This document shows, in pieces, positions 51,955 through 64,000 of a DNA stretch of 64,000 nt. The notes below the pieces were generated by a model. It did no database searches, was not told where the DNA came from, and was given only the letters and a program-made list of their open reading frames with translations. The translations under genes and the position numbers were made by a program. Position 1 is the stretch's first letter. Every line of letters starts with the position of its first letter. The DNA is from Deltaproteobacteria bacterium. Lineage in GTDB: Bacteria; Myxococcota_C; UBA6777. The stretch covers positions 1 through 64,000 of the forward strand of contig PCBK01000029.1 in the NCBI GenBank assembly GCA_002731275.1. The letters are read 5' to 3'.

Positions 51955-52857
51955 TTGCTGATCGATTTACATGTTCATTCTCATCATTCCATTTCTGGTG
52001 TTCTTGAGCCCGAAGAAATTATTTTGCGTGCCAAACAAGTCGGACTTGATGGTGTTTGCTTTACCGAAAACCAACCCTTCTCGGAGTGGAAAGAGTTAAA
52101 AGAGCTCGGGAAAGTGCACGATGTCGCGGTATTTGTTGGACTTGAAGTGTCCACCGATTGTGGCCACTACCTGTTGTTCTTTCCTGATCCCAAGCAGGTT
52201 GAGCCCGGCGCATGGTTTGACAGCGAAGAGGGCGAAGAGACGACTCTGCTGTTTGACAAAGTACGTGCTGCCGTTGAGCGCCTTGGTGGCGTGATGATCG
52301 CTTCGCGTCCATATGACCTGCGCATCCCCCATCCACTCGGAGATCGGATCTTCTCCCTTAAAGGGATTCACGGGATCGAAGTCCGCAACGGACGCTGCAA
52401 CACGCTCGTCAATGACTTCGCACTTGAAGCGTGTTTCCACCTGCGCTTTGCCGCCGTTGGTGGTAGCCACACACTCGATACCTTGACAAAACTTGGGACT
52501 GTCGCGACGCTGTTTGGTGAGACCATCGCAGACGAAGCAGCCCTGATCAACGCCCTCAAAGAAGGCAACGTCTGGCCTGTTGAAATCTCCGAAACGCCCG
52601 TCCTTCGAAATAATCGGGATATGGGTGATCGTGGAGATCGTCGTGGTCGTGATGACCGTCGTGGTCGTGATGATCGTCGTGGTCGTGATGACCGCCGTGG
52701 TCGTGATGACCGACGCGATTCCCGTGGTCGCGATGACCGTCGTGGTCGCCGTGACTCTCGTGGACGCGACGACCGTCGTGGACGTGATGACCGACGCGAT
52801 TCGAGAAGTCGTGATGATCGTGGCGGTCGACGTGGTGGAAATAGCCGACGTCGATAA
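51955..52857 (+). CDS. PHP-domain protein with Arg/Asp-rich repeat tail
   Basis: The protein has about 300 residues. The TTG at 51955 has GAGGA eight bases upstream and starts the protein right at the domain (MLIDLHVHS); an ATG at 51928 is an alternative with poor spacing. The PHP domain (about 1-210) keeps DLHVHSHHS, FTENQPF and GLEVS. The usual HPYR His is replaced (SRPYDLR), and the SDAH motif reads GGSHT, so some metal ligands differ. The last about 75 residues are tandem RGRDDR repeats, disordered and rich in Arg and Asp, resembling RGG/RD tails that bind RNA or phase-separate. Function unknown; possibly a phosphoesterase. Confidence 0.8.
   Translation: MLIDLHVHSHHSISGVLEPEEIILRAKQVGLDGVCFTENQPFSEWKELKELGKVHDVAVFVGLEVSTDCGHYLLFFPDPKQVEPGAWFDSEEGEETTLLFDKVRAAVERLGGVMIASRPYDLRIPHPLGDRIFSLKGIHGIEVRNGRCNTLVNDFALEACFHLRFAAVGGSHTLDTLTKLGTVATLFGETIADEAALINALKEGNVWPVEISETPVLRNNRDMGDRGDRRGRDDRRGRDDRRGRDDRRGRDDRRDSRGRDDRRGRRDSRGRDDRRGRDDRRDSRSRDDRGGRRGGNSRRR
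52618..52855 (+). repeat. Tandem 18-base repeats encoding RGRDDR units
   Basis: About 12 imperfect copies of an 18-base unit (CGTGGTCGTGATGACCGT type) encode the Arg/Asp-rich tail of the PHP protein. Copies differ mainly at third codon positions, and some carry DSRGRD variants. Such repeats change copy number by slippage. Confidence 0.85.
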
Positions 52858-52910
52858 TTTCACCTCTTGCTCCCCTCTTCAGACATGTCACTCCTTTCCC
52901 CCACCTTTGG

Positions 52911-54347
52911 ATGCCAAACATGAAGCCCAATACCTTTCGGGCACATGCCCATGAACTCGTTGATTGGATGGCTGACTTTCTCGAACAGCTCGAAGAACAT
53001 CGCGTCGTCCCCGAGACAAAACCTGGTGACATTCGTGCGCAGCTGCCGTCCTCTGCTCCTCAACAAGGCGAACCCTTTTCGCAGATCTTTGCGGATTTTC
53101 AGTCGACGATCCTTCCTGGGATGACGCTCTGGAATCATCCGGGTTGGTTTGCCTACTTTCCGGCCAATCACAGCCCTCCTTCGATCCTCGCTGAGATGTT
53201 GATGGCGACCCTTGGCGCGCAGTGCATGTCTTGGCAGACTTCGCCTGCTGCGACGGAGCTGGAGCAGGTTGTGATGCAATGGCTGCGAGAGCTGCTCCAG
53301 CTCCCTGAGACGTTTGTTGGGACGATCCAGGACACAGCATCTTCGTCGACGCTCGTTGCGTTGCTATCGGCTCGTGAGCGTGTCACATCTTTTCAATTTG
53401 GGCAAAAGGGACCCACCGGACTCGATGACAAGGCGTTGTGTGTGTATGCTTCGAAGGAGACGCACTCATCGATCGATAAGGCCGTGAAGCTCGCAGGAAT
53501 TGGTCTGGATCACCTGCGTCATGTCGAGACGGATGCGGACTTTGCCTTGTGTCCCGAGGCTCTTGAGCAGGCGATCAGAGAAGATCTCCAGCGAGGACAT
53601 CGACCGTTTTGTGTCGTCGCGACTGTTGGGACGACGTCTTCGTCTGCGCTCGATCCGCTCCCTGCGATCGGTGCGATCTGTCAGAAGTACGATCTTTGGC
53701 TCCATGTCGATGCTGCGTACGCTGGCACTGCGGCGATCTTACCTGAAAAACGAGCTCTCCTTGACGGGATTGAATATGCCGACAGCTTCGTCTTCAATCC
53801 CCATAAGTGGATGTTTACGAATTTCGACTGCTCAGCGTACTTCGTCAAAGACGTCGATCTACTCTTGCGGACATTCCAGACCAATCCCGAATATCTCAAA
53901 ACGGAGTACGATCCACAGGTCGTGAATTTTCGCGACTGGGGGATCCCTCTTGGTCGGCGATTCCGTGCCTTGAAACTGTGGTTTGTGATGCGTCACTACG
54001 GTGTCGAAGGGTTACAAGATCTGATTCGACAACACATTCGCTGGGCTGGTGAGCTCGTCACGTGGATCGAGGCTGATCCTGATTTTGAGTGCCTTGCACC
54101 TGCGCCACTTGGGCTCGTGTGTTTTCGGTATCATCCGGCTGGATGTGATGATGAAGTGATGCTTGATCGATATAACCAGACATTGCTCGAACGGATCAAC
54201 GCAACAGGCTCATGTCATTTGACTCACACTCGTCTAGGTGGCAAATACACCATTCGTTTGTGTGTGGGGCAGCTTTACACGCAAAGAGAGCATGTTGTGA
54301 AGGCATGGGAGTTGTGCAAGCAGATCGTGCAGGAAGGGTTGGAGTAG
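52911..54347 (+). CDS. PLP-dependent group II decarboxylase (aromatic-L-amino-acid decarboxylase-like)
   Basis: This is a 478-residue protein; the ATG at 52911 or 52920 is the start, and neither has a strong ribosome site. N-terminal motifs GDIRAQLP, HPGWFAYFPANHSPPSILAEML and SPAATELEQVVMQWL are typical of the AADC/tyrosine-decarboxylase branch. WLHVDAAYAGTA supplies the PLP Asp, and NPHKWMFTNFDCS the PLP Lys. It would decarboxylate an aromatic amino acid to the amine in the cytosol. Substrate choice (Tyr, Trp, Phe) is not readable. It converges with lgt-1. Confidence 0.92.
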   Translation: MPNMKPNTFRAHAHELVDWMADFLEQLEEHRVVPETKPGDIRAQLPSSAPQQGEPFSQIFADFQSTILPGMTLWNHPGWFAYFPANHSPPSILAEMLMATLGAQCMSWQTSPAATELEQVVMQWLRELLQLPETFVGTIQDTASSSTLVALLSARERVTSFQFGQKGPTGLDDKALCVYASKETHSSIDKAVKLAGIGLDHLRHVETDADFALCPEALEQAIREDLQRGHRPFCVVATVGTTSSSALDPLPAIGAICQKYDLWLHVDAAYAGTAAILPEKRALLDGIEYADSFVFNPHKWMFTNFDCSAYFVKDVDLLLRTFQTNPEYLKTEYDPQVVNFRDWGIPLGRRFRALKLWFVMRHYGVEGLQDLIRQHIRWAGELVTWIEADPDFECLAPAPLGLVCFRYHPAGCDDEVMLDRYNQTLLERINATGSCHLTHTRLGGKYTIRLCVGQLYTQREHVVKAWELCKQIVQEGLE

Positions 54348-54361
54348 GGAAGGTCTGTAAG

Positions 54362-55423
54362 TCAGGCTGATTGGGGTTTGTTGCGTCGCGCCATGAAGAT
54401 CAAGCCGAGCACAAAGAGACAAATGGAGACAAATTGAGAGGTGGAGAGGATCTCAATTTTGGGGATCGATGTGAACAGATCGTATTGAAAGAGATAACCA
54501 CGTCCAGGATCACCACGAAAGATCTCAATCGTAAAGCGCGCGATGGAGTAAGTGAGCATATACCAGATGAGGACCTGTCCATGGTAGCGTTTGCGACTGC
54601 GAATCCAAAGTAGACCGACGAAGATCAACAACGTGGCGAGCGCTTCGTAGAGCTGTGTGGGATGCAGTTGAATGCCTCGTGGCGCGAGACCTTGTGTGAA
54701 GGTCACGCTCCAAGGGACGAGACCGGCTTTTCCGTGACAGCAACCCGCTGAAAAGCAACCGAGACGACCAAACACTTGACCAAGCGCGATCGAGGGAGCT
54801 GCGACATCTGCGACCTTCCAGAAGTTCATCTTGTTTTTGGTCATAAACCACCAGGCGGCGAAGATCGCGCCGAGTAGACCTCCATAAAAGACTAACCCTC
54901 CTTCCCATACCCGTAAGAGTTTCCAATCCTGCCAGCGTTTGACTTGTTGGAAGTCTGCCCAGTAGGCAGGCCACTCTGTGACGATGTGTAAGACCCGCGA
55001 ACCTACAATGGCCGCGATCAGCACCCAAAAGGCTAGATCGAGGATGCGTTCGGGGCTCTCGTTGACGCGCTTACCTTCGCGGATCGCGAGCATGATCCCA
55101 ACGAGGAATCCGGCGGAGACCATCACACCATAAGTGTGAAGTTGGATCTTGCCGAGCTTAACAACACCAATCCCCGCGAGCAGGATACCGAGCGCGAGGG
55201 AGGCCAGCCCTGAGAGCCAGAGCAGTCCTGTGCCACGTGTCTCTTCTTGGGGTTTGCCTGTCTCTGGATCGATGGGGGGGGGACCACTGACCCACATAAA
55301 GACGAGAAAGCAGACTGCGAACGCGATGGCGATCTGTTGCCAGTACGCGAAGATCTGTGATGTGGGGCCAAACGCCTTATTCATCCATGAGGGGACGTTG
55401 TAGTGGAGCAAAACGGGTTGCAT
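54362..55423 (-). CDS. lgt: Prolipoprotein diacylglyceryl transferase, catalytically intact copy
   Basis: This is a 353-residue inner-membrane enzyme with seven or more TM segments. It moves diacylglycerol from phosphatidylglycerol to the lipobox Cys, the first step of lipoprotein maturation. WEGGLVFYGG, GRLGCFSAGCCHG (Arg220), HPTQLYEA and ARFTIEIFRGD (Arg296, Glu300) hold the residues matching E. coli Arg143, Arg239 and Glu243. It is longer than E. coli Lgt (291) because of an N-terminal extension with extra membrane segments. It is last in the ileS-like, lspA, lgt-2, lgt-1 cluster, separated from lgt-2 by a GC-rich hairpin. Confidence 0.93.
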   Translation of the reverse strand: MQPVLLHYNVPSWMNKAFGPTSQIFAYWQQIAIAFAVCFLVFMWVSGPPPIDPETGKPQEETRGTGLLWLSGLASLALGILLAGIGVVKLGKIQLHTYGVMVSAGFLVGIMLAIREGKRVNESPERILDLAFWVLIAAIVGSRVLHIVTEWPAYWADFQQVKRWQDWKLLRVWEGGLVFYGGLLGAIFAAWWFMTKNKMNFWKVADVAAPSIALGQVFGRLGCFSAGCCHGKAGLVPWSVTFTQGLAPRGIQLHPTQLYEALATLLIFVGLLWIRSRKRYHGQVLIWYMLTYSIARFTIEIFRGDPGRGYLFQYDLFTSIPKIEILSTSQFVSICLFVLGLIFMARRNKPQSA

Positions 55424-55455
55424 AGCATCTCTCTTTTTCGAGCCTTACAAACACA

Positions 55456-55476
55456 CCCCGTCCACAGGACGCGGGG
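55456..55476 (-). terminator. GC-rich hairpin between the two lgt genes
   Basis: CCCCGTCC-ACA-GGACGCGGGG forms an imperfect stem with a two-base bulge. On the minus strand it is followed by TGTGTTTG. It may partly end transcription after lgt-2 or separate expression of the two copies. Confidence 0.4.
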
Positions 55477-55518
55477 CGATCATTGTGGGAGGTGATGTTG
55501 GCAGGAGGGGGTTGTGAT

Positions 55519-56574
55519 TTATGAAGAAGCAGCTTCTTTGGGGTTGGTCGAGAGCAGTTTTAAGGCAGCGAAGGCAAACAAAGCGATGGAGATCGCTTGG
55601 CTCCAGGAGAGAAGGTCAGCGCCTGCTGCGTAGGGGGTGATATCGATCTTTGTGAGGAAGCCTGACGCGTCATCGCCACGGAAGATGTCGATGAAGAAGG
55701 ACATCGCCGGGTAGAGCATGAGGTACCACAAAAAGACCTGTCCGTGGAATTTCTTGGCGCTGCGCAACCAGAGCAAGAACAAGAACAGCGCGAGTACACC
55801 AAGTGCTTCGTAGAGCTGTGTGGGGTGAAGCGCGACGCCACGAACGGCTGCACCTTGTTCGTAAACGACCCTCCAGGCTACATGATTGCCTGCGACTTTA
55901 CCGTAGGAGAAACCAGCAGCGTAGCTTCCGAGCATACCAAAGACTTGGCCAATGGCGACGGAGGGGATCATGATATCCGCGAGCTTCCAGAAGTTCATCT
56001 TGTAAAGGCGGACAAAGAGCCAACAGATGATCAACGCGAGGACAAATCCACCGTAGAACAGAAGTCCACCTTCCCAAAGACGGAAGACTTTCCATTGGTA
56101 CCAGATCTTCACTTTTGCGAAGTCTTGGGCATAGTCACCCCAATGGAGCGCGATGTAGAAGGCTCTTGCGCCGACCATCGCAGCGATCAATAGCCAAAAA
56201 GCCAGATCGAGGATTCGCTCTGCGTCGACGTGAACACGTCTGGCTTCTCGGACCGCGAGCACGATCCCGATCAGGAATCCGACGGCGACGAGGACGCCGT
56301 ATGTGTGCAGTTGGATGTACTGAAGACGTCCGAGGCCGATCCCTCCGAGCATGACAGCCATAGCAAATGCGCCAAGTGTACCGAGCCAACCGAAGGCACG
56401 GCGACCACCTTTGGCGTCGGGCGCGAGACCCCACCACGCGATGGCGATCGCGACGATCAAGCCGCCAACCCACCACTGCCAGTGTGTCATCAAGTAACCC
56501 TTTGGACCCAGCGCTTTGTACAGGTCTGCGGGCAGCAATTCTACGAGTTTTTTGTTCAATAAAACAGGATGCAT
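55519..56574 (-). CDS. Lgt paralogue lacking key catalytic residues
   Basis: This is a 351-residue membrane protein with GGAGGAG before the ATG. It has the Lgt fold with the same N-terminal extension as its neighbour, and keeps WEGGLLFYGG and HPTQLYEA. Its signature GRxGC reads GMLGS: Met214 replaces the Arg equivalent to E. coli Arg143. The ARFTIEIFR segment reads MSFFIDIFR: Ser292 replaces Arg239 and Asp296 replaces Glu243. Two Arg regarded as essential are therefore gone. It is either a non-catalytic partner of the intact copy or an enzyme with changed chemistry. The frame is intact with a strong ribosome site, so it is not a decaying pseudogene. Confidence 0.88.
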   Translation of the reverse strand: MHPVLLNKKLVELLPADLYKALGPKGYLMTHWQWWVGGLIVAIAIAWWGLAPDAKGGRRAFGWLGTLGAFAMAVMLGGIGLGRLQYIQLHTYGVLVAVGFLIGIVLAVREARRVHVDAERILDLAFWLLIAAMVGARAFYIALHWGDYAQDFAKVKIWYQWKVFRLWEGGLLFYGGFVLALIICWLFVRLYKMNFWKLADIMIPSVAIGQVFGMLGSYAAGFSYGKVAGNHVAWRVVYEQGAAVRGVALHPTQLYEALGVLALFLFLLWLRSAKKFHGQVFLWYLMLYPAMSFFIDIFRGDDASGFLTKIDITPYAAGADLLSWSQAISIALFAFAALKLLSTNPKEAASS

Positions 56575-56794
56575 CCGTCTCCTCCAAATTGGGGCAGGGA
56601 CAGGTTATAGTGATAGCTTCAACGTATTGATTTCGATTTCGATTCGTGTGAATGAGGTAGATCATCCTCTACACGAAATCAAGGTCACGTCTCTTTTATG
56701 TCAACACAAAGGCCGTGATTGTACCCATCTACGCGAATATATCAACTGTCTTTTTTGTCTATCCTATCCTCACCATGTCTCTTAACTTGCGTGC

Positions 56795-57994
56795 TTATTT
56801 CTTCTCCAGAGAGTGATCTTCCTCCTGGCCGTTCCTTTCAGTCTCTTGCTCTTGTGTGTCTGGCGCTTGTGCAGGTATTGTCTCTGACGCCACCTGCTCT
56901 GGAGCCGTTTGCACAAGGGAATCTGTATTCTCGTTCGTCACCGAATGTGCTTGTTCGTGTGGAGAGTCCGTCTCTTCTGTCAACTCCAAAGTCGACGTCG
57001 CGACATTCTTCTGCTCGATGGCACCTGCCTCTTGCGTCGTGGGGGTGTCTTCTTGTTCCGTGACTTCGGTAGAAGTGTTTGTTGTTTCGGAGTTGGTTGT
57101 GTTTGTCGTCTCTTGAGCGTTTTCTGTTGCTTCGGTGTCTGTGGTGTCTTCGGCGTTTTCTGTGTCCTCAGCCTTTTCTGTCTCTTCGACTTCGTCGAGA
57201 TCGTCGGTCGTGAGTAGCAGCTCGATCGCGATCAAGAAGACCCCCACAGTGATCGCGATGTCGGCGACGTTGAAGGTCGGCCATTCGTGATAGCCTCCCT
57301 TGATGTGCCAGCTCCACTGAAAGAGTTGCAGCGAAAACGGTTTGATGTTGACGTACCACTTGATGAAGTCGATCACGTAATCGAGGCGTAGCCGGTCGAT
57401 AAAGTTCCCAAGCGCGCCACTCAAGATCAGCGACAGGGAGAAGATCATCAACTTAAACGATGCGTCAATGCGCCAAATCAACACGTACAATATGAAGAGA
57501 ATGGCGATGATGGTGATCGTAATGAAGAAAGGTCTTCGGAAAGAGGAGGGGTATTGCGAGAGCAATCCAAACGCGGCGCCGGGGTTGATCTGGTACTTGT
57601 AGTGGAAGAACCCTTCGACAACGACGCACTCGGCGTGCGTCCCCATGATCACCCTTTGGCAGTTGAGGCTACCTTTGACGTTGTCGACGCGTTTGCGCCA
57701 CGCTGGGACGATGTGTTTGTTGTAGTAGTCTTTACACAGCGCGTAGTTTTTTTCGTCGTACTTGCGGCAATGTTGTCGTATTTGATCGCAATTTTTGCGG
57801 CACGCGACGAGAGAGTGATTGCGCTTGTTTTGTTGTGCGGAGCAACGTTTGGTGCACTCACTGTACACCTTGTAACATCGGTCACATCCCTGGTCTGGGC
57901 GCTTGAGGTAGTGAACAGCCATCTGCTTGGACCACTGATCCAACCCAACAGACGACAAAATGATAAAAAGAATGATGGTATATTTTCGGTTCAT
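56795..57994 (-). CDS. lspA: Signal peptidase II with a ten-cysteine insert and acidic tail
   Basis: This is a 399-residue protein, more than twice the usual about 165. I chose the ATG at 57994, right before TM1; a long frame to 58309 overlaps the upstream gene. Catalytic Asp residues are kept: NFIDRLRLDYVIDF (Asp209) and FNVADIAITVG (Asp245), plus DQ at 19-20 and NPGAAFGL. Between TM1 and the periplasmic strand is an insert of about 90 residues (36-125) with ten Cys. Another insert of about 15 residues precedes the last motif. After TM4, about 135 residues of Thr/Glu-rich acidic tail face the cytoplasm. It removes lipoprotein signal peptides. It lies 25 bases after the ileS-like gene. Confidence 0.9.
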   Translation of the reverse strand: MNRKYTIILFIILSSVGLDQWSKQMAVHYLKRPDQGCDRCYKVYSECTKRCSAQQNKRNHSLVACRKNCDQIRQHCRKYDEKNYALCKDYYNKHIVPAWRKRVDNVKGSLNCQRVIMGTHAECVVVEGFFHYKYQINPGAAFGLLSQYPSSFRRPFFITITIIAILFILYVLIWRIDASFKLMIFSLSLILSGALGNFIDRLRLDYVIDFIKWYVNIKPFSLQLFQWSWHIKGGYHEWPTFNVADIAITVGVFLIAIELLLTTDDLDEVEETEKAEDTENAEDTTDTEATENAQETTNTTNSETTNTSTEVTEQEDTPTTQEAGAIEQKNVATSTLELTEETDSPHEQAHSVTNENTDSLVQTAPEQVASETIPAQAPDTQEQETERNGQEEDHSLEKK

Positions 57995-58019
57995 GCCCCA
58001 GTCCAATGAGGGTAAATAT

Positions 58020-60761
58020 TCAACATGTTTTGACTTCGATTGCAAACAAGGAGTCTCGTGACTGATACGCTTGCGCAGGAGGCTCTTTGTCTTGTTGGAA
58101 CGTGACGCTGTGGACGCCTGCGAGAGATGCGAGAAGGGCACAGAGGTCTTCACTGAGTGGAGCAGGGGCGTCGTCTGTTGTTGCGTAAAGTTGGAGCGTT
58201 TGTGTGTGGAAGTCGATCTTTGGAGATGACTTTCTGTGACGTGTTTTTGCCCAACGTATCGTCTTGAGGAGGTGTCTGATCGCAGACCACTGTGCTCGGT
58301 GAGTCCCATCCATCCCCAGTTCTTTTCGCGTCGGGAAGGTCGCGAGGTGCACGCTCTTTGTCTGCTCTTTTGTGTGGGGGAGATGTTGCCAGTATTCTTC
58401 TGCCGTGAAGCACAAGATCGGGGCCATCACGCGCAACAAGACGTGCAGATGTGCGTAAAGGACCGTTTGGATGGTCTTGCGGTCTTCATTCGGGGCTGTA
58501 TACAGTCGCTCTTTGTGTCTCTCAAAGTAGCCAGCACGTAACTCACGTGAGCAATAGCGCAGAAGCGCTTGGAGCGCTTTGTGTGTCTCATGTGTTTGAT
58601 AGTGCTGTCCGATCTCCTCAGTAAGCGCTGCCAGAGCGTCGAGCATATAGACGTCTTCTTGGTTGAGTGAAGACAGCGCTTGGAGATCTTTTTGTGGTTG
58701 AAAGTCTTGTAAGTTGCCCAGCAGAAACTGAAGCGTGACACGCAAACGTCTGTAGTTTTGGTTGACGTTGTGTAGATGTTTTTGTGTGAGCGTAAAGGAC
58801 TTACAGGCATCGTGTGAAGCGACCCACAGACGGAGAATGTCGCTGCCATATTGCGCGATAAAGGTCTCGGGCTCTTTGGGGAGCTCTTGTGTGGTCTGCG
58901 CATTCGATGATGTCGATGCTTTTGCGATGTCTGCGGAGGCATGTGCGATAAATTTGCTGAAGGGAAACGTCTTTTGCAGCTGCACCGTGAGCAAGAGCGT
59001 GTGTTGTAGCCATGCGTGTCCACGTGCGTTGGACTCCAGGCTCAATGAGAGCGGGAGTGGGTGGTCTTCCTGAAGGATGAGCGGGGCGAGCGCGGCTTCG
59101 AAGTTGACACTGAGCACCTGCTTCTCTTTCCTGAAGGATGAGTGTCCACAACGCATACACGAGAGGATACCTTCGTGGGGGGGGAGCAAGCTCTCAGTCT
59201 CTTCGTCATGCCAAAAGTCCGTGCCTTCTTTGGTGACGCGCTCCTGTGCAAGTGTCCGGATGTGTTCGGGGTCGAGCAGGGGGTGACGACAGCGTTTGCA
59301 GTAAAAAGCCGGGAAGGGAATGCCCCACGTCTTTTGTCTGGTAAAGCACCAATCTGGCCGCTGTCGAAGCTCTTGCTCGATGGCGCGTTTGTATGTTGCA
59401 GGTGCGATCTCGATATCTCTCAGAGTGGCGATCGTTTGTTTGCGCAGGGCGTCTTTGTCGAGATCGAGGAACCAGTGTGGGAGCGCGCGTATCAACAGCG
59501 GTTGTTGGCTATAGGGGCTGTGAGGGGAGAGTTGTTTGGTCGTGAGTTTAAAGGGGCTCAGCAAGCTGTCGAGATGTTGGAGACGTTTTTGGAGTCTCTG
59601 GGTACTCTCTACCGCTTTTTGGCCCGCCAGTCGCCCTGCAAATTGTGTGAAACGCCCTTGAGCATCGACGATCGATCTAGGCTCGATGTTGTGATCTCTG
59701 GTGATTTGGTATGCGTTGAAGTCGTGTCCTGGAGCTAGTGGGACACAACCTGTTCCTGTTGTTGCGTCGACACGTGGTGAGGAGAGGATGGGGGCTTGTT
59801 GGTGGAGCAGTGGGTGTCGTGCGACGAGTCCTTGCAGCGCCCTGCCTGGGAATGTGTGGAGGAGCTCAACGCTTCCCTTTTTCCAACGACATCGTTCGAT
59901 CAGCTCTGGATAACAAGCCTTGGAGACCAAGTAGACTTTTCGTTCGTAGCGAAGCGCGACGTATTCGGCATCTGGATGAAGTCCGAGCCCTTGGTTCGCG
60001 AGCAGCGTCCAGGGCTGTGTGGTCCATGTCGCCAACTCGACATCGCGACCACGCAGCGCGATATCGATGTGGACAGGGTCGCTGATAAGGGGAAACCCGA
60101 CAAACAGCAATGGGGTCTCGACCTCTTGGTGCACGACCTCTGCGTGACTCAGACTTATTTGGTGCTCTGTACACCAGTAAACTGGGGCTTTTTGGCGCTT
60201 GAGGACATCTGCTTCGATCAGGTCTGCGAGTTGTCTGTACACTTCTGCTTGGTAGGAGAAGGAGGAGGTCGCCAGACTTTTGTCGTTTGGAGGTGTCTGG
60301 AGACCCAATCGACTGAGCAGCGCGGCTTTTTGGGCTTGGTCTTTTGCGAGCTGCTCTCTACATTTCTTGCGCAGCGCTGGGGCAGATAGCTCTTGATCGG
60401 ATTGTGTGACTTTGCGCTCTAGCTGGTGAAAGTGTCCGAGTGAGATAGGGATGTGTTGAGCTGTCCATCCCATCATGTCGTGACTTCTTTGTGAAAAGTC
60501 CTTCAAAATTCGATGAATGACAGCTTTGTAAGAGACATGCTTGTCTGGGTAAAAGGGGGCATCCAGGCTGGTATAATGGGGAGCATCAGCGCTGTGGGAC
60601 ATATTTTTTTCGGACTGGCTCAACTCCGCCCACATGGCGATGGTTTCAAGCTCTCTCTCGGCGAGATTGGCTCTCATCGGCAACGGTGAATGGGGAAGAT
60701 GAAGTGTTTCTGGCTCGCTCACACGTGGCTCCGGCTCTGCAGGGGGGGCGACTCTCCACAT
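58020..60761 (-). CDS. Isoleucyl-tRNA synthetase-derived protein lacking catalytic motifs
   Basis: This is a 913-residue protein colinear with IleRS from TLHLPHSPLPMRANLAERE to YGSDILRLWVASHD and YRRLRVTLQFLLGNL. HIGH is replaced by SYKA (77-80) and PGWDCHGLP is gone. The DVWFDSG segment reads SVNFEAA, the DQHRGWF region is lost, and KMSKS is replaced by a Ser/Ala stretch (about 600-612). The editing domain keeps WTTQPWTLLAN and GTGCVPLAPGH, but the Asp after GHG is lost. RPDWCFTRQKTWGIPFP survives. The C-terminal zinc domain is missing. It cannot aminoacylate by the class I mechanism. The frame is intact, so it may be a pseudo-enzyme with a new role. It leads the lspA-lgt cluster. Confidence 0.9.
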   Translation of the reverse strand: MWRVAPPAEPEPRVSEPETLHLPHSPLPMRANLAERELETIAMWAELSQSEKNMSHSADAPHYTSLDAPFYPDKHVSYKAVIHRILKDFSQRSHDMMGWTAQHIPISLGHFHQLERKVTQSDQELSAPALRKKCREQLAKDQAQKAALLSRLGLQTPPNDKSLATSSFSYQAEVYRQLADLIEADVLKRQKAPVYWCTEHQISLSHAEVVHQEVETPLLFVGFPLISDPVHIDIALRGRDVELATWTTQPWTLLANQGLGLHPDAEYVALRYERKVYLVSKACYPELIERCRWKKGSVELLHTFPGRALQGLVARHPLLHQQAPILSSPRVDATTGTGCVPLAPGHDFNAYQITRDHNIEPRSIVDAQGRFTQFAGRLAGQKAVESTQRLQKRLQHLDSLLSPFKLTTKQLSPHSPYSQQPLLIRALPHWFLDLDKDALRKQTIATLRDIEIAPATYKRAIEQELRQRPDWCFTRQKTWGIPFPAFYCKRCRHPLLDPEHIRTLAQERVTKEGTDFWHDEETESLLPPHEGILSCMRCGHSSFRKEKQVLSVNFEAALAPLILQEDHPLPLSLSLESNARGHAWLQHTLLLTVQLQKTFPFSKFIAHASADIAKASTSSNAQTTQELPKEPETFIAQYGSDILRLWVASHDACKSFTLTQKHLHNVNQNYRRLRVTLQFLLGNLQDFQPQKDLQALSSLNQEDVYMLDALAALTEEIGQHYQTHETHKALQALLRYCSRELRAGYFERHKERLYTAPNEDRKTIQTVLYAHLHVLLRVMAPILCFTAEEYWQHLPHTKEQTKSVHLATFPTRKELGMDGTHRAQWSAIRHLLKTIRWAKTRHRKSSPKIDFHTQTLQLYATTDDAPAPLSEDLCALLASLAGVHSVTFQQDKEPPAQAYQSRDSLFAIEVKTC

Positions 60762-61178
60762 CTGATAAGGAAGGGAAAGTTATAACGGAAAGGGACTTGT
60801 TGTCAACCAAATGCTCGTTTTTGTGTGAGAGGCTCACTGCTTTTGTCGACTCCACCTTCATTTGCTCTTCACAACGTGAGCGAACAAAAAGATATTCCTT
60901 TGGGAGTGATGATGCTCAAGCAAGAAGAGAGGCCTTATTCTGTTTGTCGACTGAGGACATCAAAAATGTACGAATAAAGAATCGAATGTGTCAGATTTGT
61001 ATCTCCATAGTGTAGATGCAGAGGTGCTATGTGATCATAAAAGCCGCAACATGGGGCACCAAAATGGTGTTGAGCATGTGAGGGTCACAAAGCAGACACA
61101 ATGTTGATGATGCTCACCGAGCATGTCAACGATATGTTACGCTCAAAGCGTGCGAAAGTGATACGTAAAGGATGCATA
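60762..61178. other. Divergent intergenic region ileS-like gene / histidine kinase
   Basis: These 417 bases contain the consensus promoter for the ileS-like cluster at the left end and GTGAG-AGG-CTCAC near 60830. The right part must hold the kinase promoter. Longer in-frame extensions of the kinase lie here but lack ribosome sites. No separate small gene is supported. Confidence 0.55.
60779..60806 (-). promoter_or_regulatory. Near-consensus sigma-70 promoter of the ileS-like / lspA / lgt cluster
   Basis: On the minus strand, TTGACA (60806-60801), 16 bases, TATAAC (60784-60779). Eleven of twelve consensus bases match. The transcript would begin about ten bases before the ATG at 60761, leaving no Shine-Dalgarno, so the first gene would be nearly leaderless. 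Confidence 0.6.
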
Positions 61179-62531
61179 ATGGGCAGTGAGACGCTTGAGA
61201 GTCGTCTGCAAAAACAAAGGCAGATACGCTTTTTACATATCACACGTTTGTTGATGGTGTTGCTCTGTTGCACGTTTACACTGCGCGCAGGGTTGTTTTT
61301 GTGGCAACACAAGACGTCAGATGGGGTTCTTTGTCTCATTCAGCTGTTCTTTTTTGCATTTCTATGGTGGTCGCGAGGGTATGCGAAACGCGATCTTTTG
61401 CACGAAGTCATCGGCTGGTGGTGTGGCAGCGTCTTGTTCTTTTTTTCCATGATCGTCACCTTCTTCGAGGGAAGAGGTGGACCTCTCACACTTCCCCTGT
61501 CATTTTTCATGATGATGGTCTTTTTTTCGCTCATCACCGCGATCCTTGAGAAGTCAGAGAGAGCCAGTCTGTGGGGGCGTGTCGCAGCGCTGACCTATTT
61601 TATCTGGACGTTTGTGTTCATGTTTTTTGGCAGGGGGGTGAGCGTTGTGCCTGCGTTGAAGATCCTGCTGTTGGTGGTTCCTTCTCTGATGCTCGGTGGT
61701 GTGACGTATCTTATCAGCCTGGTTACACAACCCTTTCATACACTGTTGGCCGAGAGCGAAGAGGCGAAGAAACAACTCCTTGAGAGCAATGAAGAGTTGA
61801 GAAAGGCGCGCATTGAAGCCGAACGCTCCAACGAAACCAAGAGTTTATTTCTCGCAAGTATGAGCCATGAGCTGCGTACGCCTCTCAACGCAATCCTTGG
61901 ATATGCCGAGATGGTGGAGGAGGAACTTCAAGATGAGGGGATGGATGAGCTTTGTGAGGACGTCAAAAAGATCAACAAAGCCAGTCACCACCTTGTCGGT
62001 GTGATCAGTGAATTACTCGATCTTTCCAGGATCGAGTCGGGGCAAATGGAGCTGCGCGAGGAGGTGTTTGTGTTGGGGCATGTGATGCAGGAGGTCTCTT
62101 CAATCGCCGCTCCTCTCGCAAAGAAAAACAACAACCAGTTTCATGTCGACGTAGAAGGTGAACAGTGTGAATTGATTGGCGATCCACTGCGTGTTCGTCA
62201 GTGTTTGATCAACTTGTTGAGCAACGCCTTCAAGTTTACAGAAAAAGGCGATGTCTTTTTCCGTGTTGTACCAGGGAGCTGCTTAGGACTGAAGGGGATC
62301 TCTTTTGAGATCCGCGATACGGGGATGGGGATGAATGAAGAGCAGCTTACCCATATCTTCGATCCATATTGGCGTGCGGTTGAGGTCCAAAAGCATTCAT
62401 TTGTCCAGGGGACAGGTTTGGGGCTTGCGATCACACAACGTCTGTGGTTGATGATGGGAGGTGAGCTACACGTTGAGAGTCAGCCCGGAGAGGGCACGAC
62501 ATTTACACTTTGCTTGCCACTTCATATGTAG
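61179..62531 (+). CDS. Membrane sensor histidine kinase
   Basis: This is a 450-residue protein. The ATG at 61179 follows AAAGGA; the frame can extend to 61101 without a ribosome site. Five or six membrane segments (about 25-190) form the sensor, with no recognisable periplasmic domain. A coiled-coil (about 190-225) leads to the HisKA phosphoacceptor (ASMSHELRTPLNAILGYAEMV, His about 230). The ATPase domain (about 335-448) has an N-box, DTGMGM and GTGLGLAIT. No response regulator lies in the window, so it is an orphan. Signal unknown. Confidence 0.9.
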   Translation: MGSETLESRLQKQRQIRFLHITRLLMVLLCCTFTLRAGLFLWQHKTSDGVLCLIQLFFFAFLWWSRGYAKRDLLHEVIGWWCGSVLFFFSMIVTFFEGRGGPLTLPLSFFMMMVFFSLITAILEKSERASLWGRVAALTYFIWTFVFMFFGRGVSVVPALKILLLVVPSLMLGGVTYLISLVTQPFHTLLAESEEAKKQLLESNEELRKARIEAERSNETKSLFLASMSHELRTPLNAILGYAEMVEEELQDEGMDELCEDVKKINKASHHLVGVISELLDLSRIESGQMELREEVFVLGHVMQEVSSIAAPLAKKNNNQFHVDVEGEQCELIGDPLRVRQCLINLLSNAFKFTEKGDVFFRVVPGSCLGLKGISFEIRDTGMGMNEEQLTHIFDPYWRAVEVQKHSFVQGTGLGLAITQRLWLMMGGELHVESQPGEGTTFTLCLPLHM

Positions 62532-62661
62532 TTCGATGAGGAAGAGATCCCACGATTTGGTAGGTTGACTGGATGCAAAAAAGCGTACGAGCAACGTCTC
62601 CAACTCTTTTTTGCACCCGATCACCTGAGAGATACTTGTGCTGTCTGCCTGAGAGGTCTTG

Positions 62662-63693
62662 ATGTCACCCCAACGCCCCATCTTAAATGAACGTTGTCGG
62701 CCTGGTGAGGTCGGTGACTTGTTGCGTGTTCGCTCTGCTTTTTTGCGCGACGTGCGCGATTTTTTTCATCAACGCGATTTTTTGGAGGTGGAGACGCCTC
62801 TTTTGATCCCTGCTCCTGATCCCTCTCCTCATCTCAACTCATTTCGGACACGCTACACTGCGATGAATGCACAGGAGACGGAGTTGTTTTTACACACCTC
62901 CCCTGAGTTCGCGATGAAGAGGATGGTCGCGCTGGGGTACCCTCGACTGTTCCAAATCTGCAAGTTTTTTCGCAATGGTGAAATCTCCCCCCACCACAAT
63001 CCCGAATTTACAGGGCTGGAGTGGTACCTCATGGGGGCGGATTACCACACCGTGATGTCTCTGACCGAAGATCTCGTTCGTTCCTTGTGGCCGGAGGGTT
63101 CGATCCATTACCAGGGGAACACATTTGACATCTCTGTCCCTTGGGAGCGCCTAACGGTCTTCGAGGCGATGAATTGCTACGCTGGGACCTCTCTCCAGCC
63201 GGGATGTTCACATGAGGAGTTGAGCGCTGTGTGTACACAGAAGGGGCTCTCTGTCGCTGAAGATGACACTTGGGATGATCTGTTCTTCAAGATCTTTTTG
63301 ACCTACGTCGAGCCAGAGCTTGGTAAGACGAGGCCGACCTTTTTAATGGATTATCCGATTGAAATGGCGGCATTGGCCCGGCCCAAACCCGATGAACCTC
63401 GTTTGGCGGAGCGGGTCGAGTTGTACATTGGTGGTTTGGAGTTGTGTAACGGTTACAGTGAGTTAACAGATCCGGAGATGCAGCGGTCGCGTTGGGAAGA
63501 GGAGTGGGCGTACCGTCGTGAGAGGGGCGAAGAGGTGACACGAGAGCGTGGTTTGCTCAATGCGCTCGCGTGGGGGATGGGTGAATGTACAGGGGTCGCT
63601 GTGGGGTTGGATCGGTTGTTGATGCTCAAGCTCGACACGACGTGTATCGAAGATGTCTTACCCTTTCCGATGAAAGAGTTTGTTGAGGGCTAA
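62662..63693 (+). CDS. epmA: EF-P lysine lysyltransferase (EpmA/GenX/PoxA)
   Basis: This is a 343-residue protein with GAGAGG before the ATG. It is a class II LysRS-like catalytic domain without the anticodon-binding domain, the hallmark of EpmA (about 325). Motif 2 is FQICKFFRNGEISPHHNPEFTGLEWY and motif 3 is GVAVGLDRLLML. It attaches beta-lysine to elongation factor P, relieving ribosome stalling at poly-proline. No epmB or efp gene lies in the window. Its stop overlaps the convergent spmB stop. Confidence 0.92.
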   Translation: MSPQRPILNERCRPGEVGDLLRVRSAFLRDVRDFFHQRDFLEVETPLLIPAPDPSPHLNSFRTRYTAMNAQETELFLHTSPEFAMKRMVALGYPRLFQICKFFRNGEISPHHNPEFTGLEWYLMGADYHTVMSLTEDLVRSLWPEGSIHYQGNTFDISVPWERLTVFEAMNCYAGTSLQPGCSHEELSAVCTQKGLSVAEDDTWDDLFFKIFLTYVEPELGKTRPTFLMDYPIEMAALARPKPDEPRLAERVELYIGGLELCNGYSELTDPEMQRSRWEEEWAYRRERGEEVTRERGLLNALAWGMGECTGVAVGLDRLLMLKLDTTCIEDVLPFPMKEFVEG

Positions 63694-64000
63694 CCAAAGA
63701 GCGCGCGGCAGATCCAGACTGCCGCGATGATCCCTGTGAGATCGGCGGCAAGGCAGGCGATGACTGTGTGTCGTGTGGTGCGGACTTGTACTGCGCCGAA
63801 GTAGACGGCCATGACGTAGAAGGTCGTCTCTGTGCTTCCTTGGAAAGTACTGACCATGTATCCGACGAGGCTGTCTGGTCCGTTGGAGTTGATCGCCTCT
63901 GCCATGACGCCGAACGCGCCTGAGCCGGAGAGTGGTCGCAGGATCGCCATAGGGAGGGCTTCTGCAGGCATACCGATCAAGGTCGTGACGGGGCTGAGGA
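63690..64000 (-). CDS. spmB: Spore maturation protein B-like (nucleoside-recognition/Gate domain), C-terminal part
   Basis: Only the last about 100 residues are in the window; the gene continues beyond 64000. GSTETTFYVMAVYFGAVQVRTTRH and ADLTGIIAAVWICRALFG match the SpmB C-terminus, with two membrane segments. SpmA/SpmB-like proteins are found far beyond spore formers, sometimes fused; their transport role is unresolved. It may be an SpmA-SpmB fusion or a separate spmB, which cannot be seen here. Confidence 0.8.
   Translation of the reverse strand, partial: LSPVTTLIGMPAEALPMAILRPLSGSGAFGVMAEAINSNGPDSLVGYMVSTFQGSTETTFYVMAVYFGAVQVRTTRHTVIACLAADLTGIIAAVWICRALFG

Follow-up and report, generated by a model that had tools for sequence, protein, structure and literature searches.

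The window, i.e. the whole stretch of 64,000 nucleotides analysed here, carries on its reverse strand a relative of ileS, the gene for isoleucyl-tRNA synthetase (IleRS), from which the hallmark motifs of the enzyme appear to have been erased. The locus therefore raises the question of whether the encoded protein is still an enzyme, a relic in the course of decay, or a protein that has been retained for another role.

Descent, fold and active-site residues of the lspA-linked protein

The reading frame at 58020–60761 (reverse strand) comprises 913 codons and zero stops, as an earlier note on this DNA had claimed, while each of the remaining five frames across the same interval holds 16–36 stops. 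The gene and its parts are as follows.

58020..60761, reverse strand: ileS-derived pseudo-synthetase of 913 aa, without synthetic-site and editing-site residues
60779..60806, reverse strand: putative sigma-70-type promoter TTGACA-N16-TATAAC (from sequence)
60513..60542, reverse strand: HIGH region, residues 74–83, KHVSYKAVIH, the IleRS counterpart being GxIHxGHALN
59577..60191, reverse strand: CP1 (editing-fold) domain, residues ~191–395, high-confidence fold kept, catalytic Thr/His/Asp gone
58887..58928, reverse strand: KMSKS loop region, residues ~612–625, motif absent, disorder predicted
58302..58841, reverse strand: anticodon-binding helical domain, residues ~641–820, the best-kept part (32 of 44 near-invariant columns)

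A profile search matched the translated frame to positions 3–838 of the TIGR00392 ileS model, bearing out the claim that the protein aligns with IleRS from end to end, although the score of 416.7 bits lies below the curated family cut-off of 621.4. By descent and fold the protein is an IleRS, as indicated by homology across its full length and by the lspA-linked gene order. Identity as a ValRS or LeuRS was rejected by profile scores and structure. Comparison of a predicted structure with IleRS, which the earlier note had proposed as a check, yielded a confident IleRS fold (AlphaFold2 with a 48-sequence alignment; pLDDT 86.7, pTM 0.81), in which the former KMSKS loop (residues 614–624) is the sole internal stretch with a pLDDT below 50. 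The best PDB matches were IleRS structures, among them 1QU2/1QU3, the complex with tRNA(Ile) (Foldseek TM 0.76–0.81), and VIA-align returned Z-scores of up to 40, with 863 residues aligned to 1QU3. Because the input alignment consists mostly of normal IleRS, towards which the model may lean, these values are taken as compatibility of the window sequence with the IleRS fold and not as its independent discovery.

Individual residues were assessed by aligning the protein with 46 outgroup IleRS; each of the residues named here occurs in 46 of 46 of these sequences (45 of 46 for S621). In the window protein HIGH reads SYKA (H77 to S and G79 to K), D108 of GWDCHG is replaced by L, DVWF reads SVNF (D551 to S and W553 to N), and D579 and Q580 of DQHRGWF are replaced by A and R, respectively. 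Furthermore, KMSKS is gone (K620 to N, with S621 also replaced), and the editing triad T249/H341/D350 has become Q/P/A. The earlier reading of HIGH as SYKA, with KMSKS, GWDCHG, DVWFDSG, DQHRGWF and the editing Asp lost, thus holds against the outgroup, and the structural blocks WTTxPWTL, RPDWC..RQ.TWG and DILRLWVAS, said to remain, are present. In the catalytic half, the zinc ribbon likewise retains both of its CxxC pairs (C488, C491, C535 and C538), and the C-terminal zinc finger is lost, being cut at its first cysteine. A motif swap at HXGH has been reported to abolish IleRS1 activity, and the phylogeny of the same study contains no IleRS1 in which HXGH is altered (PMC10485003). Because HIGH, KMSKS and the editing residues are all gone, charging and proofreading by the window protein are judged very unlikely from its sequence.

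The near-consensus promoter described previously is present insofar as TTGACA (60806–60801) and TATAAC (60784–60779) are separated by a 16-nt spacer. It was not, however, reported by a promoter scanner that requires a T at the last -10 position, and the promoter-like sites found by that scanner occur at chance rate (4 found versus 4.4 expected), and thus the promoter is considered putative. The leader between this element and the ATG at 60761 is short, with no obvious Shine-Dalgarno sequence. No T-box or similar RNA regulatory element was matched in Rfam across 52000–64000, and no tRNA gene was found within the window. The neighbours of the gene are lspA, lgt, a histidine kinase gene and epmA; the latter is an epmA/genX-like gene at 62659–63693 (forward strand; TIGR00462, 345 bits, above cut-off), located two genes away, the product of which we take to be the EF-P lysine ligase, itself a synthetase paralogue.

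The canonical ileS and the locus in related genomes

It had been supposed that a second, real ileS must exist elsewhere, and a genome search located it on another contig of the source genome (G000; 10.75 Mb, 200 contigs, 94.65% complete, 5.5% contamination). This gene (G000:C2:75281-77800) scores 843.7 bits, carries intact HLGH and KMSKS motifs and is unlinked to lspA. That it shares 65% identity with canonical counterparts in related genera argues that it is the canonical ileS of the lineage and not contamination. Weaker ileS-model matches on C134, C125 and C3 look like related class I synthetases. In a quick tree, long branches surround the placement of the canonical ileS, and the window copy itself sits on a very long branch. 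With its active-site residues lost and a canonical copy present in the genome, the window gene reads as encoding a pseudo-synthetase and is referred to below as pseudo-ileS.

The search of the phylum covered five genomes from one family and three genera, i.e. the source genome, G003 (SBHC01000010.1, Deltaproteobacteria bacterium isolate M3003) and G001 of genus g2, and G002 and G004 of genus g3. The order pseudo-ileS-lspA-lgtA-lgtB is common to the window, G003 and G001, and thus to two genera. Downstream of pseudo-ileS, the window contains the following genes.

56795..57994, reverse strand: lspA (signal peptidase II), the ATG of which follows the pseudo-ileS stop by 25 nt, with a Cys-rich insert and a long acidic tail
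55519..56574, reverse strand: lgtA, the first lgt, an Lgt paralogue that is conserved in three genera and has neither the Arg143 nor the Arg239 equivalent (pseudo-Lgt)
54362..55423, reverse strand: lgtB, the second lgt, an intact-type Lgt with FGRLGCFSAGCCHGK and ARFTIEIFRG

The Cys-rich insert of LspA is placed after the first transmembrane segment, and the G003 LspA orthologue is 971 aa long. Among 79 further loci retrieved for IleRS relatives, LspA was found in 64, mostly within ~700 bases downstream of ileS; linkage of ileS and lspA thus appears common in bacteria, and it is because of this that the lspA-linked copy is placed, by gene order, in the ancestral position.

The G003 copy (L039 7859-10846) is complete and has QWSH in place of HIGH, GWDCHS, SAMTT at KMSKS and D/Q/N at the editing positions, while it retains DVWFDSG, the zinc finger and, as DQFRGWF, the greater part of DQHRGWF. 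Despite having neither HIGH nor KMSKS, it exceeds the curated ileS cut-off (632 versus 621.4). The G001 copy is partial, as it is interrupted by a contig end, and its readable half contains DVWFDSG, DQYQGWF and SPMTA for KMSKS; its N-terminus lies on a contig end elsewhere. KMSKS is therefore missing from all three lspA-linked copies, and HIGH from the complete relative, so that no orthologue with both motifs intact, which would have pointed to an assembly error in the window, was found at the locus. Assembly error was rejected as related losses recur in genus g2 assemblies with the same gene order.

A canonical ileS is also present in G001, and elsewhere in the genomes of G002 and G004 (that of G004 being cut by a contig end). 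The canonical IleRS (L044 7216-10074; G001, G002 and G004) is without some of the C-terminal zinc-finger cysteines, having CxRSW and not CxRCW, and the dead genus g2 copies, unlike the canonical IleRS of the lineage, retain this finger. In the G003 assembly no canonical ileS was found. This, together with the score of the G003 copy, might suggest an active, non-canonical IleRS, or else a sequencing or assembly artefact. However, completeness of the assembly is 86%, and a LeuRS-like match was likewise missing from the results of its ileS-model search, because of which we read the missing canonical gene as missing sequence; in addition, the motif losses recur in independent genus g2 assemblies, and an altered HIGH kills IleRS1 (PMC10485003). 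An active enzyme or an artefact is thus scarcely credible.

In genus g3 (G002 and G004), epmA directly adjoins lspA, and a second lspA and two lgt genes are present, with no ileS; no convincing ileS remnant was found between epmA and lspA in this genus. Two tandem lspA genes here replace one (L105 5015-7048, L106 4813-6927). Being cleanly missing in this third genus, pseudo-ileS is dispensable.

Selection, decay and the neighbouring genes

The window and G003 proteins share 35% identity over 904 residues, and throughout this end-to-end alignment the gaps are whole codons. For this pair pS is 0.80 (saturated) and pN 0.47, and for canonical IleRS between genera pN is 0.23–0.25. Synonymous sites are saturated in every comparison available at the locus, even within genus g2, and with dS thus saturated, maintenance of the coding sequence by selection was deduced from pN, a stop simulation and retention by domain. 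In the simulation, in which the excess non-synonymous divergence of ~0.465 substitutions per site was taken as neutral, about 28–31 stops were expected and 0 were observed; ~5 would still be expected at one tenth of this divergence.

Retention was counted over columns with an outgroup conservation of at least 90%, with domain borders set by eye, and 118 of these 249 near-invariant columns are changed in the window copy. Those kept amount to 32 of 44 in the anticodon-binding domain, 32 of 52 in CP1 and 29 of 51 in the second part of the core, as against 23 of 52 in the first Rossmann part, 10 of 32 around KMSKS and 5 of 18 at the C-terminus. Retention is thus unequal among domains (chi-square p = 0.0008), most clearly when the anticodon domain is set against the Rossmann plus KMSKS region (32/44 versus 33/84, Fisher p = 0.0004), and columns also kept by G003 follow the same direction (p = 0.01); the better retention of the anticodon domain may have a structural cause. 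Given that no stops are found where about 28 are expected, that non-synonymous change is far below saturation and that retention is structured by domain, neutral decay, which would have undone the earlier interpretation and does not explain the open frame, is rejected on this sequence evidence as the main history of the gene. The results argue that the protein was under selection for most of the time over which it diverged, and selection today may be weak. The window gene is, in our estimation, very probably a coding-maintained, catalytically dead former IleRS.

The main rival explanation for its persistence is that the lspA-linked ileS, being redundant, is in slow decay with weak residual selection still acting on it, and has no lasting function. 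The gene is gone from genus g3 while its flanking genes are kept, and the window copy has lost the zinc finger together with the above-mentioned 118 columns and lies on a very long branch, all of which speaks against a lasting role. Its 35% identity to the orthologue contrasts with the 65% of canonical IleRS in the same family across genera, and within the window lineage it has diverged faster than its neighbours (35% versus 39–55%). Conversely, a dying gene does not readily account for 0 stops in 913 codons or for retention that is structured by domain, nor for the situation in genus g2, where the conservation of pseudo-ileS (62%) is close to that of lspA (48%) and of both lgt genes (64–69%). 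Such a relic is a real, albeit minority, possibility.

Alternatively, the frame might persist solely because lspA-lgtA-lgtB depend on it for translational coupling or transcription, the protein itself being irrelevant. The distance of 25 nt between the pseudo-ileS stop and the lspA start, as well as the conserved synteny, would suit such an arrangement, while selection on the frame only predicts that residues are lost independently of domain and that amino-acid identity is far lower than observed. Moreover, lspA-lgt-lgt persists in genus g3 in the absence of pseudo-ileS, because of which the proposal that this copy is kept for lspA/lgt expression is disfavoured, and we consider coupling unlikely.

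The two lgt products differ in the signature motif, which is FGMLGSYAAGFSYGK in lgtA and FGRLGCFSAGCCHGK in lgtB. At the lgtA position equivalent to Arg143, M, H, L and L are found in G000, G003, G001 and G002, respectively, and at that equivalent to Arg239, S is found in all four, the equivalence being based solely on alignment of these Lgt proteins with one another and on the published motif. For E. coli Lgt, each of the two arginines has been described as essential or catalytic (PMC4728403). Between genomes lgtA is conserved as well as lgtB (55–69% and 49–64%, respectively), which indicates that lgtA is under selection, and its product looks like a conserved pseudo-enzyme. The apparent pseudo-enzyme nature of this neighbouring lgt product, as well as the missing C-terminal zinc finger and fast evolution of the window copy, goes beyond the earlier note.

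Possible roles and comparison with known systems

The full account that we favour, if tentatively, is that a second ileS rendered the former lspA-linked one superfluous and that the product of the latter persisted as a non-catalytic protein that probably binds tRNA. The second ileS would have taken over aminoacylation, after which the lspA-linked protein would have been retained as a non-catalytic protein that acts by binding. Its most likely ligand would be tRNA(Ile) or the acceptor end thereof, bound through the retained anticodon-binding and CP1 domains, and its role would be that of an accessory, sequestering or regulatory factor and not of an enzyme. What remains of the window protein reads as a tRNA-facing scaffold. 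The protein has a pI of 8.3 and a net charge of +5 (-20 for the G003 orthologue and -27 for the canonical enzyme), and its CP1 domain a charge of +2 (outgroup range -20 to -3); this basic charge fits nucleic-acid binding, in the window copy only and not in G003. It is because catalysis and proofreading are very unlikely, a tRNA-facing scaffold is left and the charge is basic that a non-catalytic tRNA-binding role is favoured.

No new conserved active site is visible, as the residues that have taken the place of the catalytic ones are mostly not the same from one orthologue to the next. No new cluster of conserved residues was detected in the orthologues, the 38 shared, outgroup-rare residues reaching a maximum of 4 per 20 columns (permutation p 0.70). 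New chemistry, e.g. that of an aminoacyl transferase using the Ile-tRNA of the canonical enzyme, has a precedent in SbzA, an IleRS paralogue turned Ile-tRNA-dependent transferase (PMC6331615). SbzA, however, retains HYGH and AMSKA, which are modelled as substrate-holding (PMC12945691), while the corresponding window positions are erased and differ between orthologues. In addition, no biosynthetic cluster was seen beside pseudo-ileS, which adjoins lspA, lgt, histidine kinase and epmA genes, and such chemistry is decidedly improbable.

A further possibility, which we hold to be improbable, is that the pseudo-IleRS senses tRNA(Ile) or isoleucine supply and, together with the pseudo-Lgt, tunes lipoprotein maturation. 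The operon would then hold two conserved dead enzymes, pseudo-IleRS and pseudo-Lgt, beside live counterparts, along with LspA and Lgt, and, if true, this would connect amino-acid status to the cell envelope in a new way.

Irrespective of its role, the gene is of interest as its erosion can be compared across the three genera, from moderate in one copy through heavy in another to clean loss of the gene in the third. Wherever the assembly allows a check, a working ileS lies elsewhere in the genome, and the fate of a displaced essential gene thus becomes directly testable. There is also a warning for annotation, since the G003 copy, which has neither HIGH nor KMSKS, is likely to be automatically called an isoleucine--tRNA ligase because its score exceeds the curated ileS cut-off.

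That tRNA synthetases can have non-catalytic relatives is known. The closest sequence and structure matches of the window protein are bacterial IleRS1 (TIGR00392; 1QU2, 8C9E), with which it shares the full-length fold, CP1, the anticodon-binding domain and the linkage to lspA, but from which it differs in being without HIGH, KMSKS, GWDCHG, DVWFDSG, DQHRGWF, the editing residues and the C-terminal zinc finger. SbzA, the isoleucyl transferase of SB-203208 biosynthesis, similarly accompanies a canonical IleRS as an additional IleRS-like protein, yet it has modified HIGH/KMSKS motifs, residual charging activity and a location in a biosynthetic cluster. The mupirocin-resistant MupA/MupB and IleRS2 are also encoded by a second IleRS gene in the genome; these, however, are active enzymes, and where the cut-offs are 1900 the window protein reaches 102 and 110 bits. 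In HisZ-type non-catalytic paralogues (PMC9437257) the synthetase fold is likewise reused after tRNA charging was lost, albeit in another synthetase class and for another role. The table of duplicated synthetases in that review includes, for IleRS, only IleRS2 and SbzA and no dead full-length form, and the open-access literature on pseudo-IleRS or a second ileS yielded the same two, although a description elsewhere is possible. What is new in comparison with these systems is a full-length IleRS that is dead at both sites, lies in an lspA/lgt operon and has intermediate states in related genera.
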